Assembly: GCF_004564135.1 (NCBI RefSeq) | Contig: NZ_CP038255.1 | Span: 3,645,501-3,709,500, forward strand | DNA from: Terasakiella sp. SH-1 | GTDB lineage: Bacteria; Pseudomonadota; Alphaproteobacteria; Rhodospirillales; Terasakiellaceae | Direction: 5' to 3' | DNA length: 64,000 nucleotides | Shown here: positions 1,438 to 53,632 of the stretch, in pieces | Position numbering within the stretch: the stretch's first letter is position 1 | Layout of the letters: the number at the start of each line of letters is the position of its first letter | The notes under the pieces: generated by a model | What the model was told of the DNA's origin: nothing | The model's database searches: none | The model's input: the letters and a program-made list of their open reading frames with translations, nothing else | Program-made: the position numbers and the translations under genes

Positions 1438-2250
1438 TTATTCTACCAATAATTCAGGGTCAAGGGCGACATTATTCAGGCTGACCCCCCAATGCAGGTG
1501 CGGCCCTGTGGCCCGTCCGGTTTTACCGACTTTGCCGACTGGATCGCCTTTTTTAACATATTGACCGTCACGAACTAAAATTTCATCCATGTGGATATAG
1601 ATGGATTGCAGCCCGTGGCCATGATCAATCATCACGCATTTACCCATCAGATACATATCTTGATGCACCAGTGAAATGACCCCATCGGCATCTGCACCAA
1701 TCAAGGTGCCTGTAGGCGCGGCAATATCCGTGCCTTTGTGCGGGCTGCGCGGTTTTCCATTCAAGATACGTTGGGAGCCAAACACACCGGAAATACGCCC
1801 CTTAAACGGCCAGTCAAAGCCGGAGGCAAAATAGGCTTGGTCCGTCACAGTTGTGCGGGTGCGCCACACGGCCGCATTATCGGCCTTGATGCGTTTAACC
1901 GCCACCGGGTCGGGGGTGACTTTCTTTTTTGGCAGACCATTAATGCGTTGGATTTTATAATTCTGTTTGGTGATCTTTAAGGTTTCATCAGCTTGCGTGC
2001 CATCGGGATAGGTGATCATCAAGTGGCTTGAGCTGCCATGATCTCGTCCAAAGCCAAGAAGGAAGAGACCGTCTTTGGATACTTTGACATCCTTGGCATC
2101 CAGCGTGACGATACTGCCCGGTGTGACTGTCCCGTAAATCAGCCCGCCCTGTTTAAAATGCCCGTTCAGGGAATAAGTGCCTGCATGGGCAAAGGAAGAA
2201 GCGAGAAGCAGCAAGGGGCCTGCAAAAATAGAAATCCATAGGTTCTTCAT
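1438..2250 (-). CDS. Secreted M23-family (LytM-like) metallopeptidase
   Basis: An N-terminal signal peptide (hydrophobic core ending near SFAHA) leads into a periplasmic region and a C-terminal M23 domain. In 271-residue numbering, zinc and active-site residues are H172 and D176 (HKGTD), H221 and HLH at 252-254 (GPHLHWG). The family cuts peptidoglycan cross-links or acts as an inactive activator; with the motifs complete, this copy is probably an active endopeptidase. The reading frame can begin one codon earlier at TTG (2253), but I prefer the ATG at 2250 (270 residues). That ATG overlaps the xseA stop as TGATG and has an AAGGAAG ribosome site upstream, which suggests translational coupling. 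Confidence 0.9.
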   Translation of the reverse strand: MKNLWISIFAGPLLLLASSFAHAGTYSLNGHFKQGGLIYGTVTPGSIVTLDAKDVKVSKDGLFLLGFGRDHGSSSHLMITYPDGTQADETLKITKQNYKIQRINGLPKKKVTPDPVAVKRIKADNAAVWRTRTTVTDQAYFASGFDWPFKGRISGVFGSQRILNGKPRSPHKGTDIAAPTGTLIGADADGVISLVHQDMYLMGKCVMIDHGHGLQSIYIHMDEILVRDGQYVKKGDPVGKVGKTGRATGPHLHWGVSLNNVALDPELLVE

Positions 2251-3797
2251 CAAAACAAACTTCCTTGTTCTGGTGCGGGTGCTTTTTTGGGTTTTGGTTT
2301 GGCTTTGGGCTTTGGGGCGGGTTGAGGTGTTGGCGGGGCACTCGGGGTGATGCCTTCACCATTGACCAGCACATCCAGTTTATCATCCCCGCCAAACTGG
2401 ATGGATAGCTCATCCCCGCTGGTGAGACCGCTAGAGGATGTTATTGCCTTGCCCTCTTTGTCACTGACCAGGGCAAAGCCACGATCCAGCACACTTTTGT
2501 AAGAATAACTTTCCAACAAGGCCGATAGGCTGTTCAGTTTCTGGCCTGCACGATCCAGGGAATCATCGACGGCCTTGCGTCGCACCAGGGCTGATGTGCG
2601 ATCATACTGGCTTTGGCGTTTCTGGATAAAGGATTGATAGCCCGACATCAGCGCTTGTGTGCGCCCTAACAAGCGTTCCTGTGCATTCTGGATTTGCTGT
2701 TGCGGCTGGGGGATTTTTGCAGCCAGTTGTTCCACGCGCATGCCATGGCGTTGTAACAGGTTGTCCATGGAATTACTCAGTCGTTCCACCCGGTCATCCA
2801 GTCGCTGGGTCATATCATCGACCAGGCGTTGGGGGTTGGGGATGGCGCGCGCCGCACTTGTGACGCGCATGGTGCGTTCATCAAGGGTTCGGTTAATGGC
2901 ATTTTCCAGCCGTGCGCCATCATCCATCACCTGGGCATAGAGTTCCCGGCGCACCGGAACGGCCATTTCCGCCGCTGCTGTGGGGGTGGGGGCACGTCGG
3001 TCTGAGGCATAATCAATCAAGGTTGTGTCGGTTTCGTGCCCCACAGCCGAGATCAGCGGAATGTCACTTTCAGCGGCTGCACGCACTACAATTTCTTCAT
3101 TAAAGGACCAGAGGTCTTCCAGTGAGCCGCCACCACGCGCCACAATCAAAAGGTCAGGGCGTGGGATGTTGTTTGATCCGTCCAAGGCGTTAAACCCGCG
3201 AATGGCCGCAGCGACCTGATCAGCGGCCCCTTTTCCTTGTACCAGACAAGGCCACAGAAGCACATGGCGGGGAAAACGATCATTGAGGCGATGCATAATA
3301 TCGCGGATCACCGCACCCGTAGGTGAGGTCACAATACCGATGGTTTGGGGCAAAAAGGGGATCGGTTTTTTACGTTCCGGCTGAAACAATCCTTCGCTCG
3401 CCAGCTTGCGTTTCAGGTCTTCCAACAGTTTGAGCAACGCGCCCTCGCCTGCCAGTTCCATAGACTCAATAACAAGCTGATATTTGGATCGGCCGGGATA
3501 GGTTGTCAGGCGTCCCTTACAGACGACTTCCATACCATCTTGGGGGCGCAGGTCGAGCTTGGCCGCTACCCCTTTCCAGCAGACCGCATCCATCACGGCA
3601 TTTTCATCTTTCAGTGCCAGATAAAGGTGGCCGGAAGCCGCACGTTTAAAGCCGGAGATTTCCCCGCGCACACGTACCAAAGAAAAGGCATCTTCCACAG
3701 TGCGTTTCAAGGCACCGGAAAGTTCGGAAACACTAAGGACAGGCTGGTTATGTTGCGCCGGGCTGTCGAATGCATCTGCAAAAGGGTTGTCAGTCAT
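2250..3797 (-). CDS. xseA: Exodeoxyribonuclease VII large subunit
   Basis: The large subunit of exonuclease VII, which degrades single-stranded DNA to oligonucleotides together with XseB. Visible parts are an N-terminal OB-fold (around VRGEISGFKR and SGHLYLALKD), the catalytic core with ARGGGSLEDLW near residues 220-230, and GHETD near 253-257, followed by long helical segments. The C-terminus ends in a Pro/Lys-rich tail. An upstream in-frame ATG at 3836 would add 13 residues; I chose 3797 because the protein then starts with MTDNPF and leaves room for a promoter before the divergent purD. No xseB is visible here. The M23 peptidase gene overlaps its stop. Confidence 0.93.
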   Translation of the reverse strand: MTDNPFADAFDSPAQHNQPVLSVSELSGALKRTVEDAFSLVRVRGEISGFKRAASGHLYLALKDENAVMDAVCWKGVAAKLDLRPQDGMEVVCKGRLTTYPGRSKYQLVIESMELAGEGALLKLLEDLKRKLASEGLFQPERKKPIPFLPQTIGIVTSPTGAVIRDIMHRLNDRFPRHVLLWPCLVQGKGAADQVAAAIRGFNALDGSNNIPRPDLLIVARGGGSLEDLWSFNEEIVVRAAAESDIPLISAVGHETDTTLIDYASDRRAPTPTAAAEMAVPVRRELYAQVMDDGARLENAINRTLDERTMRVTSAARAIPNPQRLVDDMTQRLDDRVERLSNSMDNLLQRHGMRVEQLAAKIPQPQQQIQNAQERLLGRTQALMSGYQSFIQKRQSQYDRTSALVRRKAVDDSLDRAGQKLNSLSALLESYSYKSVLDRGFALVSDKEGKAITSSSGLTSGDELSIQFGGDDKLDVLVNGEGITPSAPPTPQPAPKPKAKPKPKKAPAPEQGSLF

Positions 3798-49783: not shown

Positions 49784-51208
49784 TTAGTTCCCCTCTTTCA
49801 ACAGTTCGCGAACATCTGTCAGTTTGCCTGTGATGGCAGCCGCAGCAGCCATGGCCGGGCTGACCAGATGTGTGCGGGAATCACGGCCTTGGCGGCCTTC
49901 GAAGTTACGGTTGGATGTGGAGGCACAACGCTCACCTGGGCTCAGGCGATCATCATTCATGGCCAGACACATGGAACAACCCGCTTCGCGCCAGTCAAAA
50001 CCAGCTTCGATAAAGACTTGATCCAGACCTTCTTCTTCAGCGATTTCTTTCACCAGACCAGAACCGGGAACAACCATCGCATTCATGCCTTCCGCAACCT
50101 TGCGACCTTTGGCCACAGCAGCAGCAGCACGTAAATCTTCGATACGGCCGTTTGTGCAAGAACCGATGAAGACGCGTGTGACTTCAATTTCATTCAGTGG
50201 TGTGCCTGCTTCCAGACCCATGTAGTTCAGCGCACGTTCAATCGCGCCTGCTTTACCTTCATCACGGGCATCAGCCGGGGAAGGAACAGTGGCGTTGATC
50301 GGCAGCGCATCTTCCGGGCTTGTGCCCCAAGTCACGTAGGGGACCAGCTCGTCTGCTTTGATGATGACAGTTTCGTCATAAACCGCACCTTCATCAGACA
50401 CCAGCGTGCGCCAGTATTTTTCAGCCGCTTCAAAAGCAGCCGCTTTCGGGGCCATCGGGCGGCCACGAACATAATCAATTGTCTTGTCATCAACTGCGAT
50501 CAGGCCCGCACGTGCGCCACCTTCAATCGCCATGTTACAAACCGTCATACGGCCTTCCATGGATAGATCCATAACCGCCTGACCTGTAAATTCAATAACA
50601 GCGCCTGTACCGCCCGCTGTACCGATTTTACCGATGATGGCGAGAACCAAATCCTTGGCCGTGACGCCTTCTGGCAGGGCACCTTCAACACGGACTTCCA
50701 TGTTTTTGGATTTTTTCTGCAACAAGGTTTGTGTGGCGAGAACATGCTCTACTTCAGAGGTACCGATCCCAAAGGCCAGTGAACCAAAAGCACCGTGTGT
50801 TGCCGTGTGGGAATCACCACAAACGATTGTGGCACCGGGCAGGGTAAAGCCTTGCTCAGGACCAACAATGTGCACAACGCCTTGACGAATATCGTCCATT
50901 GCGAAGTAAGGAACGTCAAATTCCTTCACGTTGTTTTCAAGTGCTTCAACTTGAACACGGGATTCTTCGTTTGTAATCACAATACCGTTGGAACGGTCAG
51001 ATGTCGGGACGTTGTGATCTGCAACAGCGAGTGTGAGTTCCGGGTGGCGAACCTTGCGACCCGCCATACGAAGGCCCTCAAAAGCCTGCGGGGAGGTTAC
51101 TTCATGAACCATGTGGCGATCGATGAAGATCAGGCTGGTGCCGTCTTCTTGAGTTTCGATCAAATGGTTGTCCCAGATCTTGTCAAAGAGTGTGCGGGGG
51201 TTGCCCAT
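49784..51208 (-). CDS. leuC: 3-isopropylmalate dehydratase large subunit
   Basis: The 474-residue aconitase-type subunit carrying a 4Fe-4S cluster. Cluster Cys residues lie in [13 protein letters not shown] and in [17 protein letters not shown] precedes the ATG at 51208. The upstream region has no visible leucine-rich leader peptide or attenuator. A MITE-like element starts 120 bases upstream of the start codon. Confidence 0.97.
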
Positions 51209-51327
51209 TGTCGTTCTTCTCCGAATGAGTAGAGGGATTTATTTCTGTACATGTAAGAAATGTGCCCTTTCTATAGAATTTTTAGAGCAAAAGGTCACGC
51301 ACTTTTACAGATTACAGCCCTTTTCTC

Positions 51328-51595
51328 TAGGGTCAGGAGCTATTAATTTATTGCGTTTGGTTTGTAAAAAATGTCGCAAGGCAAGGAAATGGCTTGCAGG
51401 AAGAGTATTCTCTTTCAAAAGTCATTGACGTGGCCTTTGCGTCATTTTCCACAAATCCCGAAGGGACGGGCTAAAAATAAAGGTGGCTCGCGTTATAAAA
51501 CTCTTGCAGTGGAAGGTACTGCGGCGAGTTTCATGCCTAATCCACCTTTATTTTTAGCGCCGCCAAACTCAGTAAATTAATAGGTCCTGACCCTA
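51328..51595. mobile_element. MITE-like element, 268 bp, TA-flanked terminal inverted repeats
   Basis: The two ends (51328-51360 and 51563-51595) are complementary over 33 bp with three mismatches. The outer ends read TAGGGTCAGGA and TCCTGACCCTA. There is no coding capacity. An internal perfect 17-bp inverted repeat (51470-51486 and 51542-51558, GCTAAAAATAAAGGTGG arm) forms a second stem. TA at both outer ends fits the target duplication of IS630/Tc1-mariner-type MITEs, but no transposase is in the window. It sits upstream of leuC. A 16-bp piece of its end recurs at 28886-28901. Confidence 0.75.
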
Positions 51596-51987
51596 AGTCT
51601 GGCCCGTTTGATGGAGCCTTATCTTTTTTTGACTTAGAGAAAAGGGGGTGTAGGGCAGACAATGGAGAAAAGAGGACCATTTGCACTCTGGGACGTTTCT
51701 GTTAGGATCGTCAGGGGAGAATTGCAGAGCGAATCGGGAAGCTACAGGTTTTCTTTGTAAGAATATTATAATGTAATCATAAAATAGGGCGAAACTTACT
51801 TTTTTGACCAACTGGTAAAATGTAATTTTATTTTAATTTTAAATTAATACATAAAAACAGATACTTAATTGAATGTCTGCGGTCATTTCTGATTGAATCT
51901 GCGCCTAAATAGGGCTACCAAAAATAGAATAGGCCAATTTCTTTTATGAAATTGACCTTTCTCATTTGGAAAAATGAATCAGTCGGT
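51596..51987. other. Intergenic stretch, no gene found
   Basis: About 390 AT-rich bases between the MITE-like element and the Ner-like gene. I see no convincing coding frame, hairpin terminator or known RNA. It may be degraded accessory DNA. Confidence 0.5.
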
Positions 51988-52251
51988 CTATGATTTGTCA
52001 GACGATTTTGGAGGTAAACGCTTACCATCTTCAGCGTACCACTCCGGCCAAATATTATGGAGAGGCACACCTAAACATTTTGCAATAATCGTATTACCAG
52101 TTGGTTGAGGTCGTATCAAAGCGGCACGTACGACAGAATCGGATACGCCATTTTGACGGGCTAAAGCAGCCATAGAGCCAACCTTTTTTCTAACAGCGGC
52201 TTTCACGTCTTCCGGATGAGCATTACAGGTTCTGGTCGTAGAATACGGCAT
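51988..52251 (-). CDS. Ner/Nlp-like helix-turn-helix protein
   Basis: An 87-residue DNA-binding protein of the Ner/Nlp type: HPEDVKAAVRKKVGSMAALARQ, GVSDSVVRAALIRP, then GNTIIAKCLGVPLHNIWPEWY, which is the family ending. In Mu-like phages Ner shuts off early transcription opposite the repressor. Here it is divergent from a CI-like gene, with no other phage genes around, so the pair may be a domesticated switch. Confidence 0.85.
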   Translation of the reverse strand: MPYSTTRTCNAHPEDVKAAVRKKVGSMAALARQNGVSDSVVRAALIRPQPTGNTIIAKCLGVPLHNIWPEWYAEDGKRLPPKSSDKS

Positions 52252-52483: not shown

Positions 52484-53140
52484 TTGACTGATCAACTACA
52501 AACTCGCCTAAAAGAAATTGCCAAAGAATGTGGTGGCAACCGCGCCTTATGTGAAAAGTCAGGCGTATCAGAACGGACTTTTGCAAATTGGTTAGCTGGT
52601 TCCAGTGAGCCCAAGATTATTGGGATTTCTGCAATTGCACAAGCAGCTGGTGTAACCATCGACTGGCTCGTCAATGGTTCAAAACCAAAGTTACGTCTTG
52701 GGGTACATAATGATTATAACAGTGATACGGTACAGGTTGCCCATATCAGTGATGAACTGAATGTATCAGATGACAAGATTGTCAGCCGCTTAAAACTGAT
52801 CGGTCATATGCCTTTTTCAAAGCAGTTTCTGCAAAGTTTGATCGGCCATGATGAATTTGATCAACTCTGCGTTCTGGAAGTCAGTGGCGATTCGATGGAA
52901 CCGACCATGAATGATCATGATTTCGTTTTGGTCGATCGCAGTCGTCAGGAAGCCCAGGATGGGTTATTTGCCTTTTCCTTTAAGGATCGGGTGAATATCA
53001 AGCGGATCATCAATATCCTGAATGGCGTAGAAATTGTGAGTGATAATAATAGCTTGTATCCCCCTCATCGCATTGAAGGGGACGAATTGCCGCATTTACA
53101 ATTAATTGGCCGTGTGGTTTGGGTTGGCAAGACCGTTTAA
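52484..53140 (+). CDS. CI-like repressor: HTH plus S24/LexA-type peptidase domain
   Basis: A 218-residue protein with an N-terminal XRE/CI-type HTH (about 5-65) and a C-terminal S24 domain. The Ser/Lys dyad is S137 (GDSMEP) and K173 (NIKRI), as in LexA and CI. A clear Ala-Gly cleavage pair is not obvious in the linker. It starts at TTG 52484, supported by GGAG seven bases upstream and no nearby ATG. It is divergent from the Ner-like gene, suggesting a phage-derived switch responsive to DNA damage. Confidence 0.88.
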   Translation: MTDQLQTRLKEIAKECGGNRALCEKSGVSERTFANWLAGSSEPKIIGISAIAQAAGVTIDWLVNGSKPKLRLGVHNDYNSDTVQVAHISDELNVSDDKIVSRLKLIGHMPFSKQFLQSLIGHDEFDQLCVLEVSGDSMEPTMNDHDFVLVDRSRQEAQDGLFAFSFKDRVNIKRIINILNGVEIVSDNNSLYPPHRIEGDELPHLQLIGRVVWVGKTV

Positions 53141-53269: not shown

Positions 53270-53632
53270 TTACCAGTCTTTTTTCTCGGCGATACGAGCA
53301 GCTTTACCTGTACGGCCACGCAGGTAGTACAGTTTCGCACGGCGAACGTCACCGCGACGTACAACATTGATTTCAGCCAGGTTCGGGGAGTACAGCGGGA
53401 ATACGCGCTCTACACCTTCACCGAAGGAGATTTTACGCAGTGTGAAAGCAGAGTTGATACCGTCGTTTTTACGCGCGATACATACGCCTTCAAATGCCTG
53501 AAGACGCTCGCGGCTGCCTTCTTTTACCTTAACTTGAACACGGATGGTGTCACCTGCGCCAAACTTCGGGACTTCACGTTCAGCAGTCTGTTTTTCGATC
53601 TGCTCTTTACCGAGTTGTTCTACAATATTCAT
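53270..53632 (-). CDS. rplS: Ribosomal protein bL19
   Basis: A 120-residue large-subunit protein with [23 protein letters not shown] and [15 protein letters not shown]. It is the last gene of the ffh-rpsP-rimM-trmD-rplS operon on the minus strand, 50 bases after trmD. Confidence 0.98.

Follow-up and report, generated by a model that had tools for sequence, protein, structure and literature searches.

A gene-less element upstream of leuC belongs to a widespread group in which a folded core with two long arms is conserved and the transposon-like ends depend on the species

The window, a stretch of 64,000 nucleotides from the genome of Terasakiella sp. SH-1, contains a short element upstream of leuC (49784-51208 on the minus strand in the ORF list), and the question raised by this locus is what kind of element this is and what purpose its folded interior serves. 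The whole element is 268 bp long (51328..51595), starts 119 bp upstream of the start of leuC, has a TA at both borders and is present in copies elsewhere. Its terminal inverted repeats (51328..51360 on the left and 51563..51595 on the right, identified by repeat search) each comprise 33 nt and are 91% complementary with three mismatches, just as an earlier note on this DNA had described them, and constitute the two sides of an outer stem. Enclosed between them are an arm of 95 nt that is sense on the plus strand (51361..51455; match of the model R1 at G000:C1:3696861-3696955, plus), a central mini-hairpin of 11 nt, TCCCGAAGGGA, delimited by sequence and fold (51456..51466), and a second arm of 96 nt that is sense on the minus strand (51467..51562; R1 match at G000:C1:3696967-3697062, minus). 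The perfect inner repeat of 17 bp that the earlier note had reported is real (51470-51486 and 51542-51558, 100%) and lies inside the second arm, but the simple double stem envisaged from it has to be replaced by a four-way junction, since the repeat belongs to the lower stem in one of the two ~96-nt arms. In line with the absence of a coding frame, just short ORFs are present, and a 69-aa ORF (51371-51580) that overlies the arms is taken as spurious. The description as a non-autonomous mobile element agrees with the lack of a gene, the further copies in the genome and the TA target; none of the relatives searched showed this locus to be conserved base for base.

On the leuC side, where the earlier note had envisaged a possible effect on expression, the leader upstream of the gene (window 51237-51309) is conserved in four congeners until ~20 bp short of the element, and in the interval between element and gene a simple scan of the leuC strand detected nothing promoter-like. 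The idea of a regulatory RNA of the host that is fixed at leuC was rejected in view of the dispersed copies and of the congeners in which several of the sites are unoccupied. A perfect 12-bp inverted repeat (51318-51329 and 51635-51646) overlaps with its left arm the TA border of the element; possibly an older stem-loop was already present and the element inserted at its edge. Between leuC and an rplS-like ORF (53270-53632) there are two ORFs (51988-52251 and 52484-53140), the translations of which, judged by eye, look like phage-type DNA-binding regulators.

The host genome (G000) is a single contig of 3,832,570 bp, and a DNA search of it returned six copies of ~268 bp including that of the window, the other five being 94-96% identical, together with five shorter forms of 161-184 bp as measured by end coordinates. 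A second set of copies shares ~70% identity with the window element in the interior only and carries a different end. The end pattern of the window element (A) was found at 38 sites of the host genome and that of the second set (B, TAGGGCGTAAACTCATAAAATAG) at 36, each with up to three mismatches, while the reversed control pattern gave no site in either case. The ends of A and B elements are unrelated and their arms alike: in two A/B pairs from the host, arm identity above the lower stem amounts to 38/48 and 35/47 positions, compared with only 13/24 and 12/24 on the 5' side of the lower stem. No gene was seen between paired A or B ends in the host genome, and the solo ends fetched from it are short or eroded forms. 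Outside the host, the DNA search matched 10 of 100 relatives, and a comparison of the window element with phages and plasmids gave no match at E<=0.001.

Some copies occur in unusual arrangements. At L020 (G000:C1:3347934-3348204 and its right side) a full B element directly adjoins an A-type end, as if one element had inserted next to or into the other, and at L091 two B-end palindromes of 63 bp (1926-1988 and 3376-3438; G000:C1:2830425-2830487 and 2831875-2831937) flank a 456-aa ORF (1986-3356, minus strand). Near some element ends of the host (L092 and L104) there are separate short palindromes with the look of CGTC REPs (CGTCATCCTCGCG...CGGGGAT). A copy in another genome has a length of 400 bp (L151 649-1048; G071:C1:165648-166047), with ~131 bp of extra sequence within the second arm. 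In the flanks of 36 elements, nine ORFs terminate three bases inside an element, the border of which seems to supply their stop codon.

The element family has moved. Five congeners were searched with the fused flanks of 17 full-length insertions of the host; an orthologue could be read across the junction at seven sites, and five of these show a single TA at the junction in at least one congener (L017, L019, L027, L003 and L002, the last in one of two congeners only), the remaining two (L006 and L020) being empty sites without TA. The empty site of the window element itself is not visible, because only its leuC-side flank has orthologues. As to the source of mobility, the TA duplication had been attributed to IS630/Tc1-mariner; this origin was dropped, since the insertion sequences found with matching ends are IS5-type and encode DUF4096 and, where complete, DDE_Tnp_1 in a second frame (Pfam). 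The ends of the window element, in particular the outer ~20 bp of the left one, instead resemble the IS427 group of the IS5 family (ISPam4-like). ISPam4 on plasmid pAMI2 has both like ends and TA borders, and is an IS5/IS427 element of 865 bp with a 2-bp duplication in the published account (PMC3281130), so that DUF4096, DDE_Tnp_1 and the duplication length are all as in the IS427 group. In Paracoccus zeaxanthinifaciens ATCC 21588 the contig ends read TA-GGGTCAGGACCCATTAATTTTC, followed by an IS5-type gene within which the contigs break; ISPze1 of the IS427 group is listed for the same strain (PMC3281130), and the strain name suggests that these contig ends are ISPze1. Contigs of G044 and G024 also hold the start of an IS5-type gene and break inside it. 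By contrast, complete elements of ~840 bp with TA borders, kindred ends and PF13340 are present in G084 and G025, both of which carry A-type elements as well, and further PF13340 matches occur at L184 and L194-L196. On plasmids, the B ends occur at 111 places across 59 records; three of them, from Sinorhizobium, were read and proved to be the left termini of an IS5-type element. Plasmid queries with three further end types yielded 0, 2 and 2 records with partial matches only and no insertion sequence, and A and B are the only end types traced to insertion sequences. The transposase with matching ends that the earlier note had proposed to look for is therefore found in IS5-family elements of relatives and other Alphaproteobacteria, but no intact one in the host genome, where a PF13340 search yielded only fragments of DUF4096 transposases, one interrupted by an in-frame stop and the other scoring below the cut-off, and no partner insertion sequence. 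Probably, the gene-less elements have been transposed in trans by IS5-type transposases of like ends; that they are still mobile at present is less certain.

Folding with RNA parameters gave -135.4 kcal/mol for the plus strand of the window element (z -14.5) and -119.9 kcal/mol for the minus strand (z -12.8), and for neither strand did any of 200 shuffles fold as well. The junction consists of the 33-bp outer stem, an arm of ~96 nt, the 11-nt mini-hairpin and a second arm inverted to the first. In the host and its relatives 36 distinct elements of 267-271 bp could be delimited by their ends (24 with A-type and 12 with B-type ends), and 35 of them form the junction with two arms of 88-101 nt on at least one strand, the element without junction or arms being B_L064. 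The junction usually lacks an unpaired base and is present even where the arms bear no sequence relation to host arms (L118, L119, L153, L152 and L225). Because the two arms of an element are paralogous and inverted, the first arm is sense on either strand. In sense orientation an arm runs from the lower stem over AGG(A/C), the middle stem and GC(A/C) to the upper stem and loop, and back over (C)AA, the middle stem and (G/A)ACG to the lower stem. The stems are nearly perfect, and the letters of the internal loops are the most conserved positions of the arms.

The fold is conserved, with covariation, so that the arms have the covarying stems and conserved loop letters of a structured nucleic-acid family. 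Removal of identical arms left 66 of 70, of which 40 make up the alignment A1 of sense arms. In A1, from the rows of which the consensus structure was itself derived, 37/39 pairs are changed on both sides, and covariation amounts to 0.604, compared with 0.224 in shuffles and at most 0.265 when slid. A second alignment (A2) of 34 arms outside A1, which apart from those of L152 and L225 come from loci found by R1, has 88.1% of cells paired versus 52.0% and a covariation of 0.878 versus 0.224 in shuffles, and a further one (A4) of 52 matches of the model R2 at additional loci has 91.4% paired versus 50.3% and a covariation of 0.966 versus 0.210; the arms of both are mostly model-found and model-aligned and hence lean towards the structure. 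The number of pairs changed on both sides was reached by 109/500 shuffles for A2 and by 63/500 for A4, and by this measure neither alignment stands clearly above its shuffles. L152 and L225, two elements located through their ends and deliberately excluded from R1, each have an R1 match in one arm (E 1e-10 and 5.8e-10). A control is inherent in the arms, since their complementary strand has the same pairing: among the 42 host arm matches listed, no place was hit on both strands, and these matches comprise 17 pairs, all plus then minus and 11 or 13 nt apart, and eight single arms.

How far the fold extends was followed with both models. R1 matched 17/385 genomes of the class, including the host. 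R2, which was trained on more diverse arms, matched 56/100 relatives, 12 of which supplied training arms, with three of the five congeners giving no R2 match, as well as 106/398 sampled genomes of the phylum, 79 of them outside the class; five of the 106 and none of the 79 supplied training arms. Because the E-values of both models were calibrated on random sequence, the ends, which are absent from the models, served as an independent test. For this test 58 loci were picked from the R1 and R2 matches, which is a selection from the matched genomes, and exclusion of seven at contig ends left 51 evaluable ones. The ends are complementary at 24/34 positions or more in 48/51, a value reached by 0/2000 random draws, the best of which had 22. 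Among the 48, 39 have two-arm spacing with a total length of 265-282 bp, four are one-armed and five are longer. One-armed elements with complementary ends occur at L279, L293 (G316) and L282 (G026), in genomes distant from the host. The ends vary widely among loci (TAGTGTGGTGCGCGG, TAGGTTGTATCGACAG, TAGGCCATGGACTCAT, TAGAGCATGATCTGG, TATACCAAAGGTCCTTG, TAGGGTCTGTTGACG and others), and one type of core, mostly within elements of ~270 bp, is combined with many unrelated ends. The 39 two-arm loci and L354, with ends complementary at 23/34 positions, were taken as the phylum set of 40 loci; when a single strand was folded, the full junction was the minimum-energy fold in only 27/40, and a loose motif is present in 29/40 partner arms. 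Shorter and one-armed forms exist beside the two-armed elements. The element upstream of leuC thus belongs to a widespread gene-less group, of which the folded shape with two long arms is the conserved part and the transposon-like ends depend on the species.

Which strand is under selection can be approached by the mismatches, because a folded single strand that matters should tolerate G⋅T rather than A⋅C. Isolated mismatches within the arm helices were counted in sense orientation and strand-symmetric register after removal of near-identical arms by dereplication at 80%, which reduces shared ancestry but does not abolish it (54 arms kept, or 34 and 35 of 40 in the phylum set). The host-side set has 14 G⋅T versus 6 A⋅C, which is not significant alone (p 0.12), A2 has 17 versus 5 (p 0.017), and both together 31 versus 12 (p 0.005). 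In the phylum set, arms that were placed by geometry alone have 18 versus 5 (p 0.011) and model-found arms 22 versus 4 (p 0.0005). The outer stem, for which symmetry predicts no bias, has 47 G⋅T and 48 A⋅C over all positions. Other kinds of mismatch outnumber both. A first count that included the conserved loops ran the opposite way (162 G⋅T versus 210 A⋅C) and was replaced by that of isolated mismatches, and counts on model-fitted alignments were not relied on. The excess of G⋅T within the arms suggests that a folded single strand, either RNA or ssDNA, is selected, and thereby favors selection on the folded sense strand of each arm, although RNA and ssDNA are not separated by it. In 51/79 elements, many of them close relatives, one strand has GNA as its central loop. 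GNA triloops are stable in DNA, so that this loop is suggestive only as a sign of DNA.

Two readings of the fold are compatible with a selected single strand. In the first, which is preferred here and to which we assign an even chance, the fold is kept by selection on the spreading element and the folded single strand acts as a propagation signal in cis. Since copies occupy sites that are empty in congeners, and neither fold nor length is lost from one genome or end type to another, it is probably success in spreading that keeps the fold rather than use at one host locus, with selection at the level of the element. The interior is an inverted dimer of two structured arms of ~96 nt around the mini-hairpin, as a result of which a single strand folds into the four-way junction and each strand has one sense arm. 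Maintained by selection during spread, this fold would persist through changed ends and changed stem sequences. The folded strand may arise as ssDNA at replication or during replicative transposition, or as a transcript, and may help propagation, for example by holding the ends together. The folded core could also choose a strand or promote resolution of the cointegrate left by replicative transposition of the IS427 type, replicative transposition having been described for ISPam4 (PMC7359593). Somewhat more tentatively, these elements may be a class that extends over several classes of one phylum and is identified by its four-way junction instead of by ends or a gene, with a core of ~270 bp that takes up IS427-type ends and a folded strand that is active in its own propagation through end synapsis, strand choice at the fork or cointegrate resolution.

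The main rival, which appears possible but clearly less probable, holds that the fold serves as RNA at the site of insertion and makes insertions tolerable: a read-through transcript would insulate the neighboring genes, alter transcript stability, for example as a substrate of RNase III, or bind a host protein, so that folded insertions are better tolerated. Transcription in either direction would give the same order with the sense arm first, and the G⋅T excess on the sense strand agrees with this reading. The 36 copies lie 18 times between co-directional, 12 times between convergent and six times between divergent ORFs, as crude ORF calls without a genome baseline have it, and transcribed MITE hairpins that alter mRNA stability are among the cases reported for other families (PMC3733652, PMC10969869). 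However, any transcript would have one functional arm, since each strand comprises one sense and one antisense arm. Furthermore, raw fold energy shows no consistent preference for one strand.

Quasi-palindrome correction by template switching is known from bacteria, and an ordinary MITE family in which the inner palindromes are by-products of this process, without selection on structure, would account for the near-perfect stems. This explanation is unlikely, as internal loops ought to disappear under correction, whereas in fact they hold the most conserved letters, and it predicts neither a constant length of arms and elements with unrelated sequences nor a strand-specific mismatch bias. It is very improbable that the arms are a CGTC-tagged REP pair that a REP-type tyrosine (HUH) transposase mobilized or maintained and that was later enclosed in IS ends: many alphaproteobacterial arms in antisense reading do start with CGTC ahead of an 8-bp stem, and CGTC REPs are described as predominant in Alphaproteobacteria, as head-to-head dimers without a known transposase and, in H. 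neapolitanus, as lying inside 41-bp palindromes (PMC3733652), but outside the class many arms have AACG (CGTT) instead, the arm body has two internal loops, a third stem and a lower stem of ~20 bp where the REPs described have stems of 8-9 bp and loops of 4-5 nt (PMC3733652), and the TA target and IS5-type ends fit a DDE transposase.

These observations bear on how such elements are regarded. MITEs are usually considered decayed insertion sequences that are conserved mainly at their ends, whereas here the interior fold and the length are conserved across many families and beyond the class, with differing ends. The purpose of the fold thereby becomes a testable question, and a covariance model is available for finding such elements in proteobacterial genomes. 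Involvement of the fold in transposition would mean that a DDE system makes use of a folded single strand; a role as RNA would mean that a large mobile family of structured RNA is absent from Rfam, in which the window region (E<=1), 10 loci and 20 loci, one of them without arms, gave 0 matches above the curated threshold. A search of the open-access literature, with subscription journals mostly outside its scope, returned MITEs and REPs and no class with a conserved four-way junction and changing ends.

Among known systems, the IS427 group as exemplified by ISPam4 shares the end, TA followed by GG(G/T)TCAGGACCCATT(A/G)AT, with the right end of ISPam4 reading ATGAGTCCTGACCC followed by TA, and also the reported 2-bp duplication (PMC3281130). 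By contrast to these elements of ~840-865 bp with a transposase gene in two frames, the window element has 268 bp and no gene, and its interior did not derive from them in any alignment made. As in the bacterial MITEs ERIC, YPAL, NEMIS/Correia, RUP, Nezha, Chunjie and QMITE, the elements are short, gene-less and intergenic, with inverted ends and foldable predicted transcripts. These known MITEs are defined by ends within one species or genus in the descriptions consulted, and differ as described there from the present elements, in which a covarying interior is common to unrelated ends across classes (PMC3733652, PMC10969869). REPs, BIMEs and dimers of CGTC-tagged REPs resemble the elements in being inverted pairs of palindromes with conserved unpaired letters that are frequent in Alphaproteobacteria. 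Unlike REPs, which are units of 20-40 bp, those of the CGTC type having a tag, a stem of 8-9 bp, a loop of 4-5 nt and a 3-bp tail, they have the tag in part of the arms only, arms of ~96 nt with three stems and two internal loops, a unit of ~270 bp, IS ends and a TA duplication. Integron attC sites, IS200/IS605 and REP hairpins are folded ssDNA with conserved unpaired bases and a preferred strand, and are read by tyrosine enzymes. The ends described here belong to DDE transposases, so that the comparison with these substrates may apply only to the way in which the fold would work. With its 268 bp, 33-bp ends, just short ORFs, dispersed copies, a TA duplication seen at other copies and ends common to autonomous IS5 elements, the window element is a MITE, and the elements with this junction may be a kind of their own.
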